Below, one piece after another: positions 16,679 to 64,000 of a stretch of 64,000 nt of DNA. The translations under genes were made by a program, and so were the position numbers. Position 1 is the first letter of the stretch, and every line of letters begins with the position of its first letter. Below the pieces are notes generated by a model. It was not told the DNA's origin. It saw only the letters and a list, made by a program, of their open reading frames with translations, and searched no databases. The stretch is from Jiangella aurantiaca. GTDB taxonomy: Bacteria; Actinomycetota; Actinomycetes; Jiangellales; Jiangellaceae. The stretch is from positions 1 through 64,000 of the forward strand of contig NZ_SMLB01000030.1 of the NCBI RefSeq assembly GCF_004349105.1. Reading direction: 5' to 3'.

Positions 16679-18163
16679 TTACTTCGGCTGCCCGTCCGAC
16701 GGCGGTCCCGCCGGCGGCTCGGGCGCCGGTGGCGGCGTGGTCCCCGGCGGCGGCGTGGTCCCTGGCGGCGGCGTGGTCCCCGGCGGCGGCGTGGCCATCG
16801 GGCGGTCGGCGGAAGTCGGCGCCGGCGCGCCGGCCGGGACCTTCTCCTCCTGAACGATCTCCGCGGCCTCCTCGCCGAGCGACGCCTCGACCGCCTCGGC
16901 CTCCTCCTCGCGGCCCGGCGTCCGCAGGTTCCACTTGGTGATCACCCAACGGAACAGGAAGTAGTAGACCACCGCGTAGCCCAGGCCGATCACGATCAGC
17001 CAGAGCGGCTTCTCGGCGATGCGGAAGTTGATCGCGTAGTCGATGAAGCCGGCCGAGAATCCGAAGCCGTCGCGGATGTCCAGCGCGTTGGTCAGCGCCA
17101 GCGCCGTGCCCGTGAGCACCGCGTGGATGAGGTACAGCGGGAACGCGACGAACAGGAACGAGAACTCCAGCGGCTCGGTCACGCCCGTGAAGAACGAGGT
17201 CAGCGCGGCGGAGAGCATGATGCCGCCGACGATCTTCTTCTGGGCCGGCTTGGCGGTCTGCCAGATCGCCAGCGCGGCTGCCGGCAGCGCGAACATCATG
17301 ATCGGGAAGAACCCGGTCATGAACGCGCCGGCGGTCGGGTCGCCGTTGAGGAAACGCAGGATGTCGCCCTGGACCGGCGCACCGCCCGGCGGCGTGTACT
17401 CGCCCAGCTGGAACCACGGGAACGAGTTGAGGATGTGGTGCAGGCCGAGCGGGATCAGCAGCCGGTTGAAGAAGCCGTAGAGGCCGCCGCCCAGAACGTC
17501 GTTCTCGGTGACCCACTCGCCGAGGTTGGTCAGGCCGGCGTCGAACGGCTTGTACAGGAAGCTCATGCCCACGGCGATGAACACCGCCACGAACGCGGTG
17601 ATGATCGGCACGAACCGGCGTCCGCCGAAGAACGCCAGGTACGGCGGGAGCTTGATCCGGTAGTACCGCTGCCACAGCAGCGCCGCGACGATGCCCATGA
17701 TGATGCCGCCGAGCACGCCGAAGTTGATCAGCTGCTGCTCCTCGCCCTCACCGGGCTCGCCGAGGATGTAGGGCGACATCGCGTCGGAGACGCTCTCGTA
17801 GACCAGGTAACCGACCACCGCGGCCAGTGCCGTGGACCCGTCCGATTTGCGGGCGAAGCCGATGGCGACGCCGAGGGCGAAGATCAGCGGCAGGTTGTTG
17901 AAGATGCCCGCGCCGGCGGCGCCGACCACCTCGGACACCGGCTGCAGCCAGTGCAGTCCGTCGTACTGCGCCAGGCCGGCCGGCAACCCCTCGGGGACGG
18001 TGCCCGGCTCGCCGCCGAGCATGTCGTTCGAGCCGAGCCGCAGCAGCAGGGCCGCGGCCGGCAGGACGGCGATCGGCAGCATGAGGCTGCGGCCGATGCG
18101 CTGCAGGACCGCGAGGCCGGGGAAGCCACGCTTCCCGGTCGCGGTGGCGGTCGCCGTGCTCAT
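16679..18163 (-). CDS. PTS EIIC permease, N-acetylglucosamine/glucose type
   Basis: 494 residues, about ten membrane segments. Family motifs include LQRIGRSLMLPIAVLPAAALLLRLG, GAGIFNNLPLIFALGVAIGFA, GLHHILNSFPWFQLGEY, GFFPIMMFALPAAALA and TSFFTGVTEPLEFSFLF (the GITE-like substrate motif). It has no fused IIB or IIA; these are separate genes on the divergent arm, as in Streptomyces NagE2/NagF/Crr. The C-terminal tail of about 80 residues is unusual: an acidic stretch, then three tandem PPPGTT units and a Pro-rich end. The start overlaps the stop of a 33-codon ORF (ATGA). Confidence 0.93.
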   Translation of the reverse strand: MSTATATATGKRGFPGLAVLQRIGRSLMLPIAVLPAAALLLRLGSNDMLGGEPGTVPEGLPAGLAQYDGLHWLQPVSEVVGAAGAGIFNNLPLIFALGVAIGFARKSDGSTALAAVVGYLVYESVSDAMSPYILGEPGEGEEQQLINFGVLGGIIMGIVAALLWQRYYRIKLPPYLAFFGGRRFVPIITAFVAVFIAVGMSFLYKPFDAGLTNLGEWVTENDVLGGGLYGFFNRLLIPLGLHHILNSFPWFQLGEYTPPGGAPVQGDILRFLNGDPTAGAFMTGFFPIMMFALPAAALAIWQTAKPAQKKIVGGIMLSAALTSFFTGVTEPLEFSFLFVAFPLYLIHAVLTGTALALTNALDIRDGFGFSAGFIDYAINFRIAEKPLWLIVIGLGYAVVYYFLFRWVITKWNLRTPGREEEAEAVEASLGEEAAEIVQEEKVPAGAPAPTSADRPMATPPPGTTPPPGTTPPPGTTPPPAPEPPAGPPSDGQPK

Positions 18164-54947: not shown

Positions 54948-57182
54948 TCACATCATGCGCAGTGGGACTCCTGGATTCCGCGCCTGTTCCAGCACGACCT
55001 GAGCAGGCAGCGGCTTGGACATGAAGAACCCCTGAGCGCGGTAACAGCCGAGGTCGAGCAGCGTCGTGACCGCTGCGGGGTCCTCGACGCCCTCGGCCAC
55101 CGTGGTCAGGTTGAAGGCCTCGGCGAGCCGGACGATCGCGGCGACGATGGCGCGATCGCCACTGCTCTCGGCCAGCGCCGAGACGAAGCTGCGGTCGATC
55201 TTGAGGATGTCGACCGGGAGCTGTTTCAGCTGGGCCAGCGAGCTGTACCCGGTGCCGAAGTCGTCGATGGCGAGTGTGACGCCCAGACCGCGCAGCCCGT
55301 TGAGGGTGGCCTGCACGTCGTCGATGTCGCGCATCACCGTGCTCTCGGTGATCTCGATGCCCAGCTCGGCCGGCGCCAGGCCGTACCGGCTCAGCAGGGT
55401 GGCGACGAACCCGACGAAGTCGGCGCTGATCAGCTCGCCGGCGGAGATGTTCACCCGGACCAGCGGCGGCGGCACCGGCGACGTGCGCTTCCACGACGCG
55501 AGCTGTCGGCAGGCCTCCTCGAGCACCCAGCGGCCGAGCTCCGCGGAGAGGTTGATCTCTTCGACGACGGAGATGAAGGCGTCGGCCGCGAGCAGCCCGC
55601 GCTCGGGGTGCTGCCAGCGCACCAGCGCCTCGACGCCGGTCATGCGGCCGTCGCGAAGGTCGAACTCGGGCTGGAAGTACAGCCGCATCTCGTTGTTGCT
55701 GATGGCCGAGCGCAGGCGCAGCTCGAGGTCGGCCCGGACGAGGAGTTTGGATCGCAGGTCGTCGTTGAACACCACTACCGAGTCTCCACCGCGCTCCTTG
55801 GCCTCGAGCAGCGCGACGTCGGCATTGCCGAGCAGCTCGTCGACCGTGCTGGGCATGTCCCCGTTGACCACGACGCCGATACTGGCGCTGCGGCTGATGG
55901 CGTGACCACCCACTTCGAGCGGCTCGGCGACGCGGTCGAGGATGCGCCGGGCGGCCCGCTCGGCGGCGGACGTCGACGCGATCTCGTGCAGCACGATGAC
56001 GAACTCGTCGCCGGCCAGCCGCGCGACGACGTCGTTCGGCCGGACGGAGTCGCGCAGCCGCTGCGCCACGGCCTGGATGAAGTTGTCGCCGACGGTGTGA
56101 CCCAGCACGTCGTTGACCGTCTTGAGGCGGTCCATGTCGGCGAAGAGCACCGCGAGCGGAGCCCGGGGATCGACCTCGAGCACCGCGTTGAGGTCCTCGA
56201 CGAACGCCCGGCGGTTCCACAGCCCGGTCAGCTCGTCGTGGTACGCCTGGTGGTGCAGGCTCTCCTCGGCCGCGACCCGGGCGTCGAGCTGCACCAGCAG
56301 CGAGGCGATGGCGCGCAGTGCCCGCACCTCGGCACGGGTCCAGATGCGGTCGCCGAAGTGGATCAGGCCCAGCACGCCCAGCGTGGTGTCGCCGTGGATG
56401 AGCGGCACCGTGGCCAGCGAGACCTCGGGCACGCCGGAACCGGCGCGGACCCGCTCCTGGTAGCTCAGCTGGCCGTCGGACGGCCGGATGATGAACGGCT
56501 CGCGCTGGTCGCGCACCATCGAGAAGATCGGGTCCTCGGTGTCCCACGGCACGATGCCGAGCGGGTCGGGATCGGGCACGTCCAGCCGCCGCGGCCACTC
56601 GTCGACCAGCACGCTGGCCTGCAGCTCGGGGTCGTTGTGCCGGAGGAAGCAGGTGTCGGCGCCGAAGTAGCGGCCCAGCTCGCTGATGACCCGGAACAGC
56701 GTCTCGGCGAGGTCGCGGGCGGTGACGCCCATCAGCTCCGCGGCGACGTAGGTGACCAGGGCGTCGAGCCGGCTGTGCTGGTCGGTGATCTCGCCCGCCT
56801 CCATCACCGCCGTGCACAGCTGCGCCGACACCGACAGCAGTTCGCGGTCCTTCGCGGAGTACGACCGGCCGTCGAGCCGCACCAGGCAGATGCTGCCCAC
56901 GAAGTCGCGATAGGCCACCTTGGTCGCGACGATGGTGTACCCGGACGGCGCGGCGTGCTCGATGGGATCATTGCCCGCCTGGCCGGCGACCTCGGCCGTG
57001 GCGGTGCGGATGGCATCACGCATGACGGTGATGTCCTTGCCCTTGACGCCGGCCGAGGAGGCGCTCCCCCACGACACCAGCGGCATGCCGCCGTCGACGG
57101 CGAGCACGTCGGCCGAGATGGAATCCGTGGCCCGAGCCAGCGCTTCGAGGAGCGGCTGGATCGTCTCCGGGTCCATCTTCAT
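54948..57182 (-). CDS. GAF-GGDEF-EAL cyclic-di-GMP enzyme (Rv1354c-like)
   Basis: 744 residues. A roadblock-like or sensory N-terminus (1-135) is followed by a GAF domain (about 150-305), GGDEF (about 310-470) and EAL (about 490-735). The GGDEF signature is RLAGDEFVIVL (residue 390, AGDEF variant), with I-site RPND five residues upstream and Asp metal ligand in FADMD. The EAL set is intact: EAL (519), VNIS, EITES (610), DDFGTGYSS (640), KIDRSF (661), so phosphodiesterase activity is likely and cyclase activity plausible. The ATG overlaps the stop of the ThiF/nitroreductase gene. Same domain order as M. tuberculosis Rv1354c, beside Rv1355c there as here. Confidence 0.94.
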   Translation of the reverse strand: MKMDPETIQPLLEALARATDSISADVLAVDGGMPLVSWGSASSAGVKGKDITVMRDAIRTATAEVAGQAGNDPIEHAAPSGYTIVATKVAYRDFVGSICLVRLDGRSYSAKDRELLSVSAQLCTAVMEAGEITDQHSRLDALVTYVAAELMGVTARDLAETLFRVISELGRYFGADTCFLRHNDPELQASVLVDEWPRRLDVPDPDPLGIVPWDTEDPIFSMVRDQREPFIIRPSDGQLSYQERVRAGSGVPEVSLATVPLIHGDTTLGVLGLIHFGDRIWTRAEVRALRAIASLLVQLDARVAAEESLHHQAYHDELTGLWNRRAFVEDLNAVLEVDPRAPLAVLFADMDRLKTVNDVLGHTVGDNFIQAVAQRLRDSVRPNDVVARLAGDEFVIVLHEIASTSAAERAARRILDRVAEPLEVGGHAISRSASIGVVVNGDMPSTVDELLGNADVALLEAKERGGDSVVVFNDDLRSKLLVRADLELRLRSAISNNEMRLYFQPEFDLRDGRMTGVEALVRWQHPERGLLAADAFISVVEEINLSAELGRWVLEEACRQLASWKRTSPVPPPLVRVNISAGELISADFVGFVATLLSRYGLAPAELGIEITESTVMRDIDDVQATLNGLRGLGVTLAIDDFGTGYSSLAQLKQLPVDILKIDRSFVSALAESSGDRAIVAAIVRLAEAFNLTTVAEGVEDPAAVTTLLDLGCYRAQGFFMSKPLPAQVVLEQARNPGVPLRMM

Positions 57183-59311
57183 AGGTTGCTCCCTGCCTCC
57201 AGGGCGTCCCGAACAGTGCGGTCGGCAGACAGGCGGCGGCTCCGGACGCTGACGCTAGGAGCGTAGCCGATCCGCATGACCAGCGCGACGTACCTCTCCC
57301 CAAGCCCGACGATCCCGGCGAAATCGCGACATAGGCCGCGAAGTCGGTCGGCGTAGCGGGGGGACAGCTCCTGGTAGTCGGCGTCGTCGACGCCGAAGAT
57401 GAACACCGGCGACATCGGATGCACCGCCAACCCCAGCCGCTCGGCCTCGATCCAGACCCGTTCGACCGCCTGTCCACCGCGCACGTAGTCGGCCGGCGAC
57501 GACCCCGCGACGGAGACCACTGCCAGCCCGGCGGCGGCGTCGACGCGGTCGCGGGTGGACTCGCCGAGCGCCCGCCCGAGGTCCTGCTCGGCCAGGACGG
57601 CCATGACGTCGGGCCGGCGAGCGACACCCAGTTTGGCGAGGTCGGACGCATCGAGCTCGAGGGTCCGCACGTCGATGCCCCAGTCGAGTGCGTCGATGCC
57701 GGGCCAGCGTAGCTCGCGCATCATCTCGCGGTGCAGGTGCTCGGTGAGGTAGCGCAGCCGGTCGGACTCGCCCAGCAGCTCGGCCAGCTCGTGCAGCCGG
57801 TCGCGGCCGGTGACGAGATGGACGTCGGCGTCCTCGGCCGCGGCCGCGGCGCGCAGCACGTCCGCCGTCCGCTCCGGCAGCGGCGTGGGCTCGTTGAAGT
57901 GCCGGTTCGACACCCGCCGCAGCATGGCGTCATACAGTCCGGCCAGTTCCGGGTCCGAGCCCGTGCCGAAGCGCAGGCTCGCCACGCGGTCGCCGTCGGG
58001 CCGGATCTCGACGTCGCCGAGCAGCCCGTGCCGGGCGGCCGCGATGCGCGCGTTGAACAGCGCCGCGCCGATGGCCACGTGGCTGCCGCGGAACGCGACG
58101 TCGAGCGTGGAGGTCTGGCTCGGGTCGAGGTCGATGTCCAGGCCGCCCGGGCCGAGCGTGAACGTCCAGGGCTGCGTGTTGCCGCCCGACGGCGCCAGCC
58201 GCGCGGCGTGCGCGACGGCGGCGCGGGGGTCGGCGGGCGGCGGCTCGGGGTCGACGACGAGGTCGGCGGAGAAGTCGGCGTCCGCGGCCGGCGGCGGGTC
58301 GGCGAGCTTGGCCAGCATGGAGTCGAGGTCCACACGCACCCGTCCGGACGGCACGGGCGCTCCCAGGCCGAGCTTGCGGACAGCGGCGGCCACCGTCGCG
58401 GCGCCCAGGGTGATGTCGCCGCCCAGCTGCGGCCAGGTGTTGAGGCTCTCGTCGACCTCCGCCATCGAGGCGGCCATCGGCGCCGACAGCTCGCTCGGCT
58501 CGAGCACCCGCAGCACGTACGGGACCTTGTCGTGCGTCGACAGGCCCATGAGGTCGGCCGGGCGCGCGTCGCCGAGCAGCCCGTGGAACAGCGGCCGGTC
58601 GGGCTCGAGGTCGTACCGCTCGACGTCGAGCAGCCCGCGGTCGCTGGTCTCCATGACGACCGGCAGCCGGTGCCGCCGCGCGCCGTCGCGCAGCGCCAGT
58701 TTCACATCGAACGAGTCGCACTCTTCGATGACGATGTCCAGCCCGTCGAGGAAGGTGTCGATGGAGTCCAGGGCGAGGCCGGACGGCTCGATGCTGACCT
58801 CGAGGTACGGGTCCAGCTCGGCGATGCGGCGGGCGACCACGACGGCCTTGTTCACGCCGAGGTCGAAGACGGTACCGGGGATCCGGTTGAGGTTGGACAG
58901 CTCGATCTCGTCGAAGTCGGCCAGCCGGATGTGCCCGCAGCTGCCCTCCAGCGCGAGGGTGTGCGCGATGGCGTGGCCGACGCTGAGGCCGGCGACGCCC
59001 ACGGAGAGTCGCCGGAGCCGTCGCTGCTCCTCGACGGTGATCTTGTTGCGGTTGCGGTCGGTGCGCAGCGTCTGGAACGCCTCGGGACCCAGCAGGTGGA
59101 TCAGCGTGCGCCGCCACGGGTAGAAGTACCACCGCGTCGGCTCGTCGGCGATCTCCGGCGGCGGCGCGGAGAGCAGCCGGGCGAGGTCGCGTCGCTGCTG
59201 CTCGATGGTGTCGACGACCTGGACCGCGGGGTCGGCGCGCAGTCCGGCCAGCCGATCGGGGTCGTCCACCAGCTCAGGGCGCCAGCCGGCCCCGTTCACG
59301 GCATCGGTCAT
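57179..59311 (-). CDS. ThiF (E1-like) / nitroreductase fusion, Rv1355c family
   Basis: 710 residues. N-terminal helical part (1-95), then an E1-like adenylation domain: GVAGLSVGHAIAHTLA (105-120) with ADFDEIELSNLNRI (131-144) for ATP, and DIVIEECDSFDVKL. No CxxC zinc pairs and no E1 catalytic Cys are visible. From about residue 345 there is an Acg-like nitroreductase domain: RLAPSGGNTQPWTF (371-384), VAFRGSHVAIGAALFNARIAAARHG, NRHFNEPTPLP. Rv1355c (MoeY) has the same length and order; a role in molybdopterin synthesis is unproven. Coupled by ATGA overlaps at both ends to an acyltransferase-like gene and the c-di-GMP gene. Confidence 0.88.
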   Translation of the reverse strand: MTDAVNGAGWRPELVDDPDRLAGLRADPAVQVVDTIEQQRRDLARLLSAPPPEIADEPTRWYFYPWRRTLIHLLGPEAFQTLRTDRNRNKITVEEQRRLRRLSVGVAGLSVGHAIAHTLALEGSCGHIRLADFDEIELSNLNRIPGTVFDLGVNKAVVVARRIAELDPYLEVSIEPSGLALDSIDTFLDGLDIVIEECDSFDVKLALRDGARRHRLPVVMETSDRGLLDVERYDLEPDRPLFHGLLGDARPADLMGLSTHDKVPYVLRVLEPSELSAPMAASMAEVDESLNTWPQLGGDITLGAATVAAAVRKLGLGAPVPSGRVRVDLDSMLAKLADPPPAADADFSADLVVDPEPPPADPRAAVAHAARLAPSGGNTQPWTFTLGPGGLDIDLDPSQTSTLDVAFRGSHVAIGAALFNARIAAARHGLLGDVEIRPDGDRVASLRFGTGSDPELAGLYDAMLRRVSNRHFNEPTPLPERTADVLRAAAAAEDADVHLVTGRDRLHELAELLGESDRLRYLTEHLHREMMRELRWPGIDALDWGIDVRTLELDASDLAKLGVARRPDVMAVLAEQDLGRALGESTRDRVDAAAGLAVVSVAGSSPADYVRGGQAVERVWIEAERLGLAVHPMSPVFIFGVDDADYQELSPRYADRLRGLCRDFAGIVGLGERYVALVMRIGYAPSVSVRSRRLSADRTVRDALEAGSNL

Positions 59312-60030
59312 CGTGCGCCCGGAACCTCCGTGCCCGTCGCGGTGCGGCATTCCGCGTCGTACAGCCGGCGCTGCTCCTGCGTGGCCCGCTCCATGGCGGT
59401 CTCGGCGTCCCAGGTCAGCACCGTCGTGCGGTAGCGGTCGTCGGGGTAGCGGGCCGGGATGATGCCGGGCAACTCCTCGGCGCCGGAGTTGAACCAGCGC
59501 GACGCCGCGTGCTCGGCCGCGGAGCAGTACGCGTAGCGCACATCGAGCATGCGCATGGCGTGCAGGAACGCCCGCGAGGTCAGGTCGGCGAGCGCAGACT
59601 TGTGCTCCGACGTGGGGTCGACCCAGGCGCCCTTGAGCTCGATGACGCCCTCGGGCAGGGCCGCCTCGATCCAGTCGCTCACCAGCGAGGCGGACACCGG
59701 CTCGCTGACGAACTCACGGGGCGCGTAGGCGTCGCGCATGGAGCGCAGCGGGCCGTTGGCGTACCAGCCTGCCCAGACCCGCCCGCTGTCGTCGGACGTG
59801 ATGGCGAACACCGGGGTGGTGGACGCCTGTGTCGCGGCGGGCAGGGTGAGGGCCTGTTCGACCCGGTAGCGCTGGTAGCTGGCCTGAGCACCGTTCATGT
59901 ACGTGGTCCAGTGATCGAACCGCCGGCTCGGCGTGTAGAAGCGCAACGTCATGCCCGAGACCTCGTCCCGGAACCCGTACAACTCGCGGGTGGTGGTGCG
60001 CTCGGATGACTTGAGGGGGCTGGTGGTCAT
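59308..60030 (-). CDS. N-acyltransferase-like protein (FeeM/GNAT or autoinducer-synthase fold)
   Basis: 240 residues. RFYTPSRRFDHWTTYMNGAQASYQRYRVEQALTLP, then FAITSDDSGRVWAGWYANGPLRSMRDAYAPREF, and ELKGAWVDPTSEHKSALADLTSRAFLHAMRMLDVRYAYCSAAEHAASRWFNSGAEEL. The order (GxWYxxGPL strand, conserved Glu/Lys-Gly-Ala-Trp-Val strand, long helix, aromatic strand) resembles FeeM-type N-acyl amino acid synthases and LuxI/GNAT folds. The assignment is by pattern only. It opens the three-gene operon; its stop overlaps the ThiF start. GTG 60051 is an alternative start; no clear ribosome site. Confidence 0.65.
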   Translation of the reverse strand: MTTSPLKSSERTTTRELYGFRDEVSGMTLRFYTPSRRFDHWTTYMNGAQASYQRYRVEQALTLPAATQASTTPVFAITSDDSGRVWAGWYANGPLRSMRDAYAPREFVSEPVSASLVSDWIEAALPEGVIELKGAWVDPTSEHKSALADLTSRAFLHAMRMLDVRYAYCSAAEHAASRWFNSGAEELPGIIPARYPDDRYRTTVLTWDAETAMERATQEQRRLYDAECRTATGTEVPGAR

Positions 60031-60935: not shown

Positions 60936-62195
60936 ATGTCTGGGTCCCCGGCTTCCTACCGCGACGTCTTCGCCGCCACGGAGTTCCGCTGGCTGTGGCT
61001 GGCGCATCTACTCTCCGTGATCGGCGACCAGCTCGCCCGGGTCGCGCTGACGCTGCTGGTGTTCGACCGGACGGAGTCGGCCGGCCTGGCCGCGCTCACG
61101 TACGCCCTGACCTATCTGCCCGACCTCGTGGGCGGCGCGGCGCTGGCCGGACTGGCCGACCGCTTCCCGCGCCGCAACGTCATGGTGGTCGCCGATCTCG
61201 CCCGGGCGGCGCTGGTGGGGGTGATGGCGGTCCCCGGCGTCCCGCTGGCGGCGCAGGTCTGCCTGCTGGCCGTGGTGCAGCTGCTGACGGCGCCGTTCTC
61301 GGCCGCGCGACAGGCGGCCCTGCCGGACATACTCCACGGCGACCGGCTGGCGCTGGGACTCGGCGTCTTCTCCATGACGTACCAGGCCGCGCTCGTCGTC
61401 GGCTTCGGCTCCGGCGCGGCCCTCGTCGCCGGACTCGGCGCCCCCACGGCCCTGCTCGTCAACGCTGCGACGTTCGTGGTGTCGGCGCTGCTGATCGCCC
61501 GCGGCCTCGGCCCGCACCGCCCCGTAGCGCCGGCCCGGGAGGCCGGCGACCCGGCACCGCCCGGGCAGTGGGCCACCGTCCGCGCAGGCTGGCGGGTCGT
61601 CGCCCGCGATCCGCGGCTGCTGACGCTGCTCGCCATCGCCTGCTGTTCCGGGTTCTACGTGGTGCCGGAGGGGCTGGCGGTGCCCTACGCGGCCGAGCTC
61701 GACGCGGGCCAGGCCGCGGCCGGCTGGCTGCTCGTCGCCAACCCCGTGGGGACGGTCATCGGGATGCTGGTGCTGGGCCGGCTGCGGCCGGAGCGCCGCC
61801 TCGCGCTCATGGGCCCGCTCGCGGTGGCGAGCAGCCTGGTGCTGATCCCCACCGGCTGGCTGCCCGGCCTGGCCGTCTCGGTGCTGCTGTGGACCGTCAG
61901 CGGGGCGTGCTCGGCCCACGACATGGTGGTCCAGGCCACCTACGTCGAGTCCGTCCCAGCACACCGCCGAGGTCAGGCGGTCGGGCTCGCGATCGCCGCC
62001 CTCCGGGCGGCGCAAGGTCTCGCCATCGTCGCCGCGGGCGTCCTGGCCCAGCTGTTGTCGCCATCGACGATCATCCTCGTGGCGGCGGTGCTGGGCACCC
62101 TGGCGGCCGCGGCCGCATGGCACCGTTGGTCACGATTGGCCCCGCCCCGCGCCCTACCACCACCCCAGGGCGAGGCCGACAACCTTCTCGGCTGA
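60936..62195 (+). CDS. MFS exporter
   Basis: 419 residues, about twelve membrane segments. DVFAATEFRWLWLAHLLSVIGDQLARVALTLLVFDRTESAGLAAL is the typical start of the MFS_3/enterobactin-exporter-like group. LAGLADRFPRRNVMVVADLARA is the loop 2-3 motif, and PAHRRGQAVGLAIAALRAAQGLAIVAAGVL lies in the second half. A drug or metabolite exporter. It converges on the heptapeptide minigene array, with its stop inside the shared terminator hairpin. Export of a product of the neighbouring genes is possible but unproven. Confidence 0.9.
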   Translation: MSGSPASYRDVFAATEFRWLWLAHLLSVIGDQLARVALTLLVFDRTESAGLAALTYALTYLPDLVGGAALAGLADRFPRRNVMVVADLARAALVGVMAVPGVPLAAQVCLLAVVQLLTAPFSAARQAALPDILHGDRLALGLGVFSMTYQAALVVGFGSGAALVAGLGAPTALLVNAATFVVSALLIARGLGPHRPVAPAREAGDPAPPGQWATVRAGWRVVARDPRLLTLLAIACCSGFYVVPEGLAVPYAAELDAGQAAAGWLLVANPVGTVIGMLVLGRLRPERRLALMGPLAVASSLVLIPTGWLPGLAVSVLLWTVSGACSAHDMVVQATYVESVPAHRRGQAVGLAIAALRAAQGLAIVAAGVLAQLLSPSTIILVAAVLGTLAAAAAWHRWSRLAPPRALPPPQGEADNLLG

Positions 62196-62213
62196 CCGGC
62201 GTCGCCGGCAGCC
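62190..62213. terminator. Bidirectional terminator between MFS gene and minigene array
   Basis: GGCTGACCGGC (62190-62200) pairs with GCCGGCAGCC (62204-62213) with a single bulged A. It overlaps the MFS stop and lies about 20 bp after the last minigene on the minus strand, so it can end both transcripts. Confidence 0.6.
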
Positions 62214-62233
62214 GTACTCCACGGACCAGCGCC

Positions 62234-62257
62234 TCACGACCAGGTGTTGTCACGCAT
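62234..62257 (-). CDS. Heptapeptide minigene 5 (MRDNTWS)
   Basis: Last copy. Ser codon TCG instead of TCC, peptide unchanged. Ribosome site GGAGGAGG, spacer TACTGCG. Followed after 20 bases by the terminator hairpin. Confidence 0.65.
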   Translation of the reverse strand: MRDNTWS

Positions 62258-62300
62258 CGCAGTACCTCCTCCGGGGTTCGTCGCGGACCGTCATCGCTGC

Positions 62301-62324
62301 TCAGGACCAGGTGTTGTCACGCAT
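62301..62324 (-). CDS. Heptapeptide minigene 4 (MRDNTWS)
   Basis: Same 24 bases. Ribosome site AGGAGGAGG, spacer TACTGCG. Confidence 0.65.
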   Translation of the reverse strand: MRDNTWS

Positions 62325-62367
62325 CGCAGTACCTCCTCCTGGGTTCGTCGCGGACCGTCATCGCTGC

Positions 62368-62391
62368 TCAGGACCAGGTGTTGTCACGCAT
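62368..62391 (-). CDS. Heptapeptide minigene 3 (MRDNTWS)
   Basis: Same 24 bases. Ribosome site GGAGGAGG, spacer TTCTGCG. Confidence 0.65.
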   Translation of the reverse strand: MRDNTWS

Positions 62392-62434
62392 CGCAGAACC
62401 TCCTCCGGGGTTCGTAGCGGACCGTCATCGCTGC

Positions 62435-62458
62435 TCAGGACCAGGTGTTGTCACGCAT
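62435..62458 (-). CDS. Heptapeptide minigene 2 (MRDNTWS)
   Basis: Same 24 bases as copy 1. Ribosome site GGAGGAGG, 7 bases before the ATG (spacer TACCGCG). The linker before it is 42 bases, one shorter than the others, so a linker frame starting ATGACGGTC continues in frame into this copy. Confidence 0.65.
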   Translation of the reverse strand: MRDNTWS

Positions 62459-62500
62459 CGCGGTACCTCCTCCGGGTTCGTCACGGACCGTCATCGCTGC

Positions 62501-62524
62501 TCAGGACCAGGTGTTGTCACGCAT
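62501..62524 (-). CDS. Heptapeptide minigene 1 (MRDNTWS)
   Basis: First copy on the transcript: ATG CGT GAC AAC ACC TGG TCC TGA. The ribosome site is AGAGGAG with a 9-base spacer, different from the other four copies. An upstream frame (62517-62576, 19 codons, MSLYSMDLGRMVRGVDGDA) ends overlapping this ATG by 8 bases and could feed ribosomes into it. Confidence 0.6.
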   Translation of the reverse strand: MRDNTWS

Positions 62525-62664
62525 CGCCGTCCACTCCTCTCACCATGCGCCCGAGATCCATCGAGTACAGGCTCATTGTCCACTTTTGCTCTAGCGACAG
62601 ATCCGCCCAATTCGGTTACCATGTGGCCGATCGTTCCCGTCCGCTTGCTCGCTGTCGAAGTGGG
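62525..62664. promoter_or_regulatory. Divergent promoter region between minigene array and GGDEF gene
   Basis: 140 bp, clearly more AT-rich in 62570-62625 than the flanks. I cannot fix a -10/-35 pair with confidence on either strand; TACCAT at 62617-62622 is a possible -10 for the GGDEF gene. Shared control of both transcripts is plausible. Confidence 0.4.
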
Positions 62665-64000
62665 GTGCACGGCTTGATCCACCGACCGGCCCCCGTCAAG
62701 AGCTGGCCCCTGTGGAAGGTGCCGAAGCCGTTACTGACGCTGATCGTGCTGGTCATCACCGTTGCTGTCGGCGTCAGCACCGCCACCGCGTTCATGATGC
62801 CCATCCGGGGCGTCGACCTACTCCGCTTCGCCATCCTGGCCGCCTGCGCCTGGGCCGCCATCGAACTGACTCGGCACATCGAGCGCAAGCGCGAATTCAC
62901 CCGCAGTAGCGTCACGGCCTACATCGACACGAAAGCGGTGTGGAGCTTCGCCGCGGTCATCGTGCTGCCGCCGGTGTTCGCCTCGATCATGGTCGTGCTC
63001 ACATACGGACTGGCCTGGCTGCGGGTGCAGCCGCACAACCGGACCGGGCTCCTCTACCGCTGGGTGTTCTCCTGCGCGACCGTGCTGTGCGGAACCCATG
63101 CGGCGGTCGCCGTACTGGCGCTGGGCATGTCCGGCTACCCGGGCGCACCCGGCGACGCGTCGCTGGCCGGGCTGGCCGACCTCGGCGTCGTCACGCTGGC
63201 GGCCGTGCTGCGCTGGGGCATCAACACCGCGCTCGTCATGGTGGCCATCGCCCTGGCGAACCCGACGGTGCACGTACGCGACCTGTTCTCCAACTTCAGC
63301 GAGCAGCTGCTCGAGGCCGGCGCCATGGGGCTGGGACTGGTGGCCGCCGCGGTCGTCGTCGGCAACCCGTTCGTCCTGCCGGGCATCGTCATCGCGATGG
63401 TTGCGCTGCATCGCGGCCTGCTCGTCCACCAGTACCAGCGAGCGTCCCGGTTCGACGCCAAGACCGGGCTGGCGTCGGCGGGCTGGTGGCACGAGTTCGC
63501 CGAGCAGACGCTCGCGCACGCTCGCGACCACCAGCTGACGATGGGCCTGCTCATCATCGACATCGATCACTTCAAGAGGTTCAACGACACCTACGGCCAC
63601 ACCCATGGCGACCGCGTGCTGCGGGCGGTGGCGCAGGAGATCATCGCCGAGGTCCGCGACCAGGACGCCTGCGGCCGATGGGGCGGCGAGGAGTTCGCCG
63701 TCGTGCTGCCCGATGTCGGCGACTCCCGCAACCTGCGCAACGTCGCCGAGCGCATCCGGCGGCGCGTGCAGTCGGTCGTCGTCGAGCCGGCCGACCACGA
63801 CGGCTCTGCCACCAGCTCCGTCACCGTTTCGCTCGGCGGTGCGATCTACCCGTCCGCCGGCATCAGTGGCCTCGACGAGCTGTTGCTCTCGGCCGACACC
63901 GCGCTGTACGCGGCCAAGAACGCCGGGCGCAACACCGTCCGCCTCGGCGGGGTCGAGGCGCCGGCCGCCGAGCCCGAGCGGCGCTCGCTGCCGCAGCAGG
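62665..64000 (+). CDS. Membrane-bound diguanylate cyclase (GGDEF), cut by window edge
   Basis: 445 codons visible. Six or so membrane segments occupy residues 20-230 (LLTLIVLVITVAVGVSTATAFMM, FAAVIVLPPVFASIMVVLTYGLAWL and others). The GGDEF domain follows: MGLLIIDIDHFKRFNDTYGHTHGDRVLRAVAQ and CGRWGGEEFAVVLPDV with GGEEF at about residue 340. The product-inhibition I-site RDQD lies five residues upstream, so it should make c-di-GMP and be feedback-limited. No EAL before the cut. Start: GTG 62665 or the in-frame GTG 62623; neither has a strong ribosome site. Divergent from the heptapeptide array. Confidence 0.9.
   Translation, partial: MHGLIHRPAPVKSWPLWKVPKPLLTLIVLVITVAVGVSTATAFMMPIRGVDLLRFAILAACAWAAIELTRHIERKREFTRSSVTAYIDTKAVWSFAAVIVLPPVFASIMVVLTYGLAWLRVQPHNRTGLLYRWVFSCATVLCGTHAAVAVLALGMSGYPGAPGDASLAGLADLGVVTLAAVLRWGINTALVMVAIALANPTVHVRDLFSNFSEQLLEAGAMGLGLVAAAVVVGNPFVLPGIVIAMVALHRGLLVHQYQRASRFDAKTGLASAGWWHEFAEQTLAHARDHQLTMGLLIIDIDHFKRFNDTYGHTHGDRVLRAVAQEIIAEVRDQDACGRWGGEEFAVVLPDVGDSRNLRNVAERIRRRVQSVVVEPADHDGSATSSVTVSLGGAIYPSAGISGLDELLLSADTALYAAKNAGRNTVRLGGVEAPAAEPERRSLPQQ

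Follow-up and report, generated by a model that had tools for sequence, protein, structure and literature searches.

Tandem seven-codon genes beside a membrane diguanylate cyclase in Jiangella aurantiaca and other actinobacteria

The locus and its minigene array

We analysed a stretch of 64,000 nucleotides from Jiangella aurantiaca (contig NZ_SMLB01000030.1 of assembly GCF_004349105.1, positions 1 to 64,000), which we call the window. A preliminary description of this DNA had noted an array of heptapeptide genes between a gene of the major facilitator superfamily (MFS) and a divergent gene for a membrane protein with a GGDEF domain. The array is indeed there, and the phenomenon turned out to be larger than first seen. 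Positions 62234-62524 of the minus strand hold five genes of seven codons each (minigenes, Table 1), and every copy encodes MRDNTWS followed by a stop codon. Each minigene is preceded by one purine-rich Shine-Dalgarno (SD) sequence, the 3' end of which lies 7-9 nt from the ATG, and the copies follow each other with a period of 66-67 nt. A search for exact matches to the pattern ATGCGNGAN7TGGN3TGA gave five hits in the window and none in 100 shuffled windows; in a tandem repeat scan of the window (12 rows), the array has the top score (542). Scans of the region 62150-62750 for consensus promoters and terminators gave no match.

The array and the MFS gene are arranged tail to tail, with 38 nt separating the last minigene from the MFS stop codon. 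The gene on the other side, divergent from the array, encodes a membrane diguanylate cyclase (DGC) and, judging from its orthologues, probably starts with the GTG at 62665(+). As had been described, this protein keeps both sequence features of an active DGC, that is, a GG(D/E)EF motif (here GGEEF, which is invariant across 27 aligned cyclase rows) and an RxxD inhibitory site (I-site), found here as RDQD five residues N-terminal of GGEEF.

Table 1. Features of the array locus and its neighbourhood in the window
Feature	Position	Strand	Basis or remark
Minigene 1 (first copy), MRDNTWS	62501-62524	-	Pattern match; SD GAGAGGAG upstream
Minigene 2, MRDNTWS	62435-62458	-	Pattern match; SD GGAGGAGG
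Minigene 3, MRDNTWS	62368-62391	-	Pattern match; SD GGAGGAGG
Minigene 4, MRDNTWS	62301-62324	-	Pattern match; SD GGAGGAGG
Minigene 5 (last copy), MRDNTWS	62234-62257	-	Pattern match; SD GGAGGAGG; synonymous TCG for TCC
Membrane DGC, cut by the window end	62665-64000	+	GGDEF domain (PF00990, 1.3e-39)
N-terminal membrane domain of the DGC, proposed peptide sensor	62704-63465	+	Confident multi-helix model; no Pfam family over cut-off
MFS transporter	60936-62195	+	Pfam MFS_1 and MFS_3; under the NCBIfam cut-offs of named exporter families
GGDEF-EAL protein with an AGDEF motif, possible circuit partner	54948-57182	-	Domain profiles

A profile search of the whole genome (6.6 Mb) yielded 86 MFS_1 matches, two GGDEF matches and a single EAL match. 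All GGDEF and EAL domains detected in the genome belong to two proteins of the window, about 5.5 kb apart. Since there are just two GGDEF domains in 6.6 Mb, a chance linkage of the array to one of them is unlikely; by simple arithmetic, a random stretch of 8 kb would meet one of the two genes in well under 1% of cases.

Conservation of the encoded peptide

In the window alone, the spacers are nearly identical as well as the copies, so we turned to related arrays. The exact peptide pattern MRDNTW(S/T) was found in seven of the 60 genomes searched (including that of the window), with four to eight copies each, and in none of them when the pattern was reversed; among the 393 genomes of the class it was found in the same seven. 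The near relatives mostly encode MRDNTWT, and in these genomes the SD and the gene are kept while the spacers are free to change. The MFS homologues of the window's family led to further arrays, which encode MRDNNWN, MRDSNWT, MRDTTWS, MRANSWD, MRGNSWD, MRDNKWSR or the doublet MRDTNWVLRDTNWSW.

Altogether we compared 220 copies from 49 related arrays. Within an array, the copies differ by 4.6% in the genes and by about 50% in the spacers, where the comparison was made without gaps and therefore overstates the divergence. Among the codon differences 349 are synonymous and 70 non-synonymous; 160 start-codon changes are excluded from the synonymous count (509 with them), the compared codon pairs are not independent, and the set, which with two exceptions omits arrays without any peptide occurring twice, favours low non-synonymous counts. 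Both ATG and GTG are found as start codons, and all of TGA, TAA and TAG as stops. Near-identical genes, mostly synonymous changes and diverging spacers argue that it is the peptide that is conserved. We read the array as a set of translated seven-codon genes; what the sequences show is selection acting on the encoded peptide and one ribosome-binding site for each copy.

The peptides have six to nine residues (seven in 48 of the 65 listed ones), mostly of the form MRxxxWx, with a sequence that differs by locus: the three variable residues differ and the tryptophan is constant. In two cases doublets are fused within one reading frame, namely MRDTNWVLRDTNWSW (L099, 8385-8718, four copies) and MREIRWTREIRWTRA (L172, the same locus as G092b). 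Both doublets repeat the core unit, which agrees with the peptide being the product.

In four loci from Jiangella-type genomes (L022, L023, L024 and L025), the first minigene has an in-frame start codon 57 nt further upstream, behind a purine-rich stretch. Its use would give a first copy of 26 residues (MCDGA...MRDNTWT or VCDDA...MRDNTWT).

Association with membrane diguanylate cyclases

We asked how often such arrays occur beside a DGC when the search knows nothing of the neighbouring genes. A tandem pattern of this kind matched 17 of the 393 class genomes, and its reversed control matched five (with up to nine matches in one of them). The 17 genomes contain 29 array loci. For 28 of these, a DGC that shares the same N-terminal membrane domain is found within 1 kb; the 29th (G015 C5) sits where its contig ends. 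A profile made from this domain (A1) matches 70 of the 393 genomes.

In the window's family, 18 of 22 genomes contain the DGC, and every one of these 18 has minigenes as well as an MFS gene of this type. No tandem pattern was found in the other four, one of which (G013) has a distant MFS gene with 38% identity. Of the 50 GGDEF matches in the 18 genomes, 31 belong to the array type, 18 are others that occur once in each genome, and the last one is weak. Of the 31 loci of the array type, 29 have a minigene; the two without belong to the same cluster as an array-linked DGC, and an in-frame stop codon occurs in one of these two. In G019, a genome of a different genus, nothing but the DGC and the MFS gene is kept from the neighbourhood seen in the window. 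A protein with ThiF and nitroreductase domains (57179-59350 in the window) is found near the array in the Jiangella-type genomes, though not in G019.

We also applied a strict minigene rule to the regions upstream of 39 DGC genes, which were chosen for spread (35 of the 60 A1 loci that lie outside the family, four of the 31 that lie inside; L167 was unused). This gave 23 hits on the divergent strand and none on the other, with 0.4 hits predicted by shuffling; outside the family, 19 of the 35 loci are positive. As the rule was set after peptides had been seen in the same loci, more weight should be given to its controls than to the number of hits. Among the peptides found beyond the family are MLRGVTWI, MSSGIQWV, MSKGVSWA and MRNIIWG. 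A looser reading of the 16 loci without a strict hit adds four more (G234, G092a, G092b with its doublet and G314).

We also searched for tandem heptapeptide genes in a collection of species-representative genomes, which gave 63 stretches. A rule blind to the neighbours (copies alike, and an SD ahead of at least one copy) is passed by 40 of them. A GGDEF or A1 domain is present in 32 of these 40 and MFS in 21, compared to none and one, respectively, in the 23 stretches that fail the rule. The MFS profile used here included one cyclase (L092_00), and open reading frames (ORFs) that also matched the cyclase profile were removed. Four of the eight passing stretches without GGDEF are not actinobacterial (L190, L207, L216 and L225); they are misses in the count of 32 and are excluded from the actinobacterial counts that follow. 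Non-actinobacterial tandem matches, many of them with a period of 69 nt, we took to be out-of-frame readings of protein repeats.

Of the 36 actinobacterial arrays, 33 have a GGDEF protein, or the N-terminal domain of one, in their vicinity. These 33 include Actinoplanes palleronii (L240), where the GGDEF gene is seen in a longer stretch. Among the remaining arrays, the stretch of Micromonospora chalcea (L239) breaks off within a gene that agrees in its first residues with the GGDEF gene of M. tulbaghiae, and L242 is at a contig end. The loci are not independent, as Jiangella, its relatives and two Frankiaceae bins make up about half of the 36 arrays. MFS genes accompany 21 of the same 36, which is frequent, not universal. 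The preliminary description had proposed to test whether GGDEF or MFS genes co-occur with the arrays; the outcome is in favour, and it is seen for GGDEF in both searches. Among five further pattern sites in eight scanned genomes, the single minigenes L245, L247 and L249 have a GGDEF neighbour; L246, a site without an SD, has neither GGDEF nor MFS. The triplet L248 (2771-2902) encodes three unlike peptides (MRGRSWS, MRGSAWT and MRGSTWS) and is followed by a co-directional MFS gene.

The arrangement varies. In Actinocatenispora (12-13 copies, mostly MREHNWS), in Micromonospora and in the bin RSA1 (Actinomycetales), the array is located just upstream of a large co-directional GGDEF gene, and in the three of these loci that were scanned for domains (L209, L192 and L187) this co-directional partner is a GGDEF-EAL protein. 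In the Pseudonocardiales loci L217 and L223 there are three A1-type GGDEF matches within 8 kb each, and L217 holds two arrays (MRGHSWG and MRNHNW). In summary, the constant partner of the minigenes is a cyclic di-GMP (c-di-GMP) enzyme, and MFS is a secondary partner. Comparison of the genomes shows the linkage to a membrane DGC in several families of actinobacteria, and where the cyclase types differ, the peptides usually differ too.

Apart from the array, the window contains another tandem repeat, with an 18-nt unit and 4.9 copies (16707-16794).

Possible roles of the peptide

What could a short peptide do beside a membrane DGC? We give an even chance to the proposal that the membrane sensor of the partner cyclase has the peptide as its ligand, that is, that the peptide is self-made, exported by MFS where present and sensed with an effect on c-di-GMP. 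The many minigene copies, together with repeated translation without ribosome release, would yield leaderless peptide in bulk. For mccA, the number of recycling rounds per ribosome is given as about 71 at seven codons, 30 at 11 and 6 at 15 (PMC6495379). The peptide would then exit through the neighbouring MFS protein where one exists and bind to the membrane sensor domain of the cognate cyclase, with a change in c-di-GMP as a result. The peptide would thus act as an autoinducer whose direct readout is a second messenger. That it is an exported signal, as had been suggested from the window, appears plausible.

The AlphaFold2 model of the N-terminal domain is confident and consists of multiple helices (pLDDT 88.2, pTM 0.85). 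In a comparison by VIA-align, eleven chains of ECF-type transporters (RibU, ThiT, PanT, CbiM and others) rank first with Z between 12.6 and 8.7, and the next hit has 7.2. A resemblance to ECF S-components would fit a ligand pocket; we treat it as a lead and not as a result. A search of the A1 members against Pfam found no family over its cut-off. MASE9 (PF20972), likewise a membrane domain ahead of GGDEF, reaches 22.5 bits in one partner (cut-off 24.3) and is matched by one of 20 A1 members (E 0.16); we did not assign the sensor to MASE9, as it stays under the Pfam cut-off. Peptide distances are correlated with the distances of the cyclases or their domains (r = 0.69, reached in 0 of 5000 permutations). 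An association between columns of the peptide and sensor alignments was discarded, as it merely separates clades.

Several observations weigh against the ligand proposal. Production of the peptide, its export, its binding and its effect on c-di-GMP are all steps that we infer. The correlation of r = 0.69 could be produced by shared ancestry alone. The ECF Z values are below about 13, where VIA-align warns of a common helical-bundle arrangement, and Foldseek found nothing with E below 0.001 for the N-terminal domain alone (with the whole cyclase, it lists GGDEF proteins). Even under the looser reading, 12 of the 39 tested DGC genes have no minigene. The array L241 is a true exception, without a GGDEF or MFS match in 18 kb; the near-miss pair L191/L243 has MFS and no GGDEF match in 16 kb, and the triplet L248 has MFS and no GGDEF match on its 5.6-kb contig. 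Many loci have no MFS gene and would thus need either another exporter or an action inside the cell.

Among the other explanations, the one that survives best is that the peptide itself is the exported product, for example an antibiotic or a modified peptide in the style of microcin C, and that the cyclase only times its production. The microcin C gene mccA has an MFS exporter, and the length of our peptides and the MFS neighbour resemble this system. The window indeed has a seven-codon precursor and an MFS gene, for which peptide export is a candidate role, and MFS is found with more than half of the actinobacterial arrays, also when co-directional (L240, L243 and L248). On the other hand, the near-constant partner is the cyclase and not MFS, and we see no constant modification enzyme: besides DGC and MFS, the neighbourhood in G019 shares nothing with Jiangella, although no search for P450 or for enzymes of ribosomally synthesised and post-translationally modified peptides (RiPPs) was made around all arrays. 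(ORFs in this neighbourhood, at the co-directional loci and for the orientation of the next gene come from a simple ORF caller.) We consider an exported product unlikely.

A closer comparison separates the minigenes from microcin C itself. PMC6495379 describes microcin C precursors as usually of 7-8 residues, with a seven-codon gene, a strong SD and a required C-terminal asparagine. The seven-codon gene with a strong SD is shared, as is the MFS neighbour in many loci; the partner, however, is an adenylating enzyme there and a c-di-GMP enzyme with tandem copies here, and the C-terminal residue is mostly not asparagine (five of the 65 listed peptides by manual count; serine in the window). A ThiF/MccB-type adenylating enzyme would be expected beside the precursor; the ThiF protein of the window has no homologue in the 20 kb around the array of G019. 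We rejected membership in microcin C, as neither the C-terminal residue nor the ThiF partner fits. Biarylitides have a minimal precursor gene of 18 bp that gene callers miss, as here. Their peptides have five residues and a P450 partner, whereas ours mostly have seven; none of the 65 has five, which speaks against a biarylitide.

The peptide may also remain intracellular and work as a small regulatory subunit that binds the cyclase (or MFS) on the cytoplasmic side, rather than as an intercellular signal. It would fit this role that the peptides lack a secretion signal and that many DGC-linked minigenes have no adjoining MFS gene, but the recurrence of MFS genes in more than one family would then call for a different explanation. 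We find this role rather improbable.

Quite improbable, in our view, is an action in cis, in which ribosomes that translate the short genes would act as sensors of translation or of a drug and so regulate the expression of a neighbouring gene. The arrays directly upstream of large co-directional GGDEF genes would suit it, and for these loci we keep a leader peptide in consideration. In the window, we rejected a leader on orientation: the array points away from the DGC and towards MFS, and in 23 of 26 assessable loci the gene that follows the minigene likewise runs in the opposite direction. The variation of the residues around a fixed tryptophan and the doublets do not agree with it either. 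The translation sensor offered earlier as an alternative is thus disfavoured in the window and, except at some co-directional GGDEF-EAL loci, unlikely in general.

Hardly credible, finally, is the view that the repeats work as DNA or RNA, be it as binding sites or as the result of a repeat expansion, with reading frames that are incidental: the window, with its near-identical copies and spacers, cannot decide the matter alone, but codons are conserved in the 49 arrays, SDs are kept in the near relatives, single minigenes lie on one strand only upstream of the DGC genes of other families, and a structured RNA was rejected, as the array RNA folds worse than shuffled sequences (z = +3.98; 100 of 100 shuffles fold equally well or better).

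Returning to the ligand proposal, comparable known systems are Agr and RRNPP, Gram-positive peptide pheromones whose longer precursors feed kinases or cytoplasmic receptors. A small peptide gene linked to a candidate receptor and a locus-specific peptide are common to all of them, whereas here the candidate receptor is the cyclase itself. A search of open-licence papers found nothing on GGDEF-linked minigenes. More doubtful is the broader idea of a new actinobacterial signalling class, in which tandem genes of about seven codons would make leaderless, tryptophan-tagged peptides (MRxxxWx and similar ones). Once exported, these would attach to an S-component-like membrane domain in the c-di-GMP enzyme with which they are paired, and the signal would be converted directly into c-di-GMP, with one dialect per enzyme type.

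Gene callers usually apply a length limit that genes this short do not reach, and an entire family of them can therefore go without annotation. If the link between peptide and cyclase holds, it would provide a peptide signal that is read directly as a second messenger, and many natural pairs of peptide and receptor for tests of specificity. As the GGDEF and EAL domains that the profiles find in this genome are confined to two proteins of the window, the peptide could govern the c-di-GMP that the organism makes by GGDEF enzymes. The tandem seven-codon genes of soil actinobacteria are almost always neighbours of a c-di-GMP enzyme, and the peptides they encode may represent a novel type of bacterial signal.

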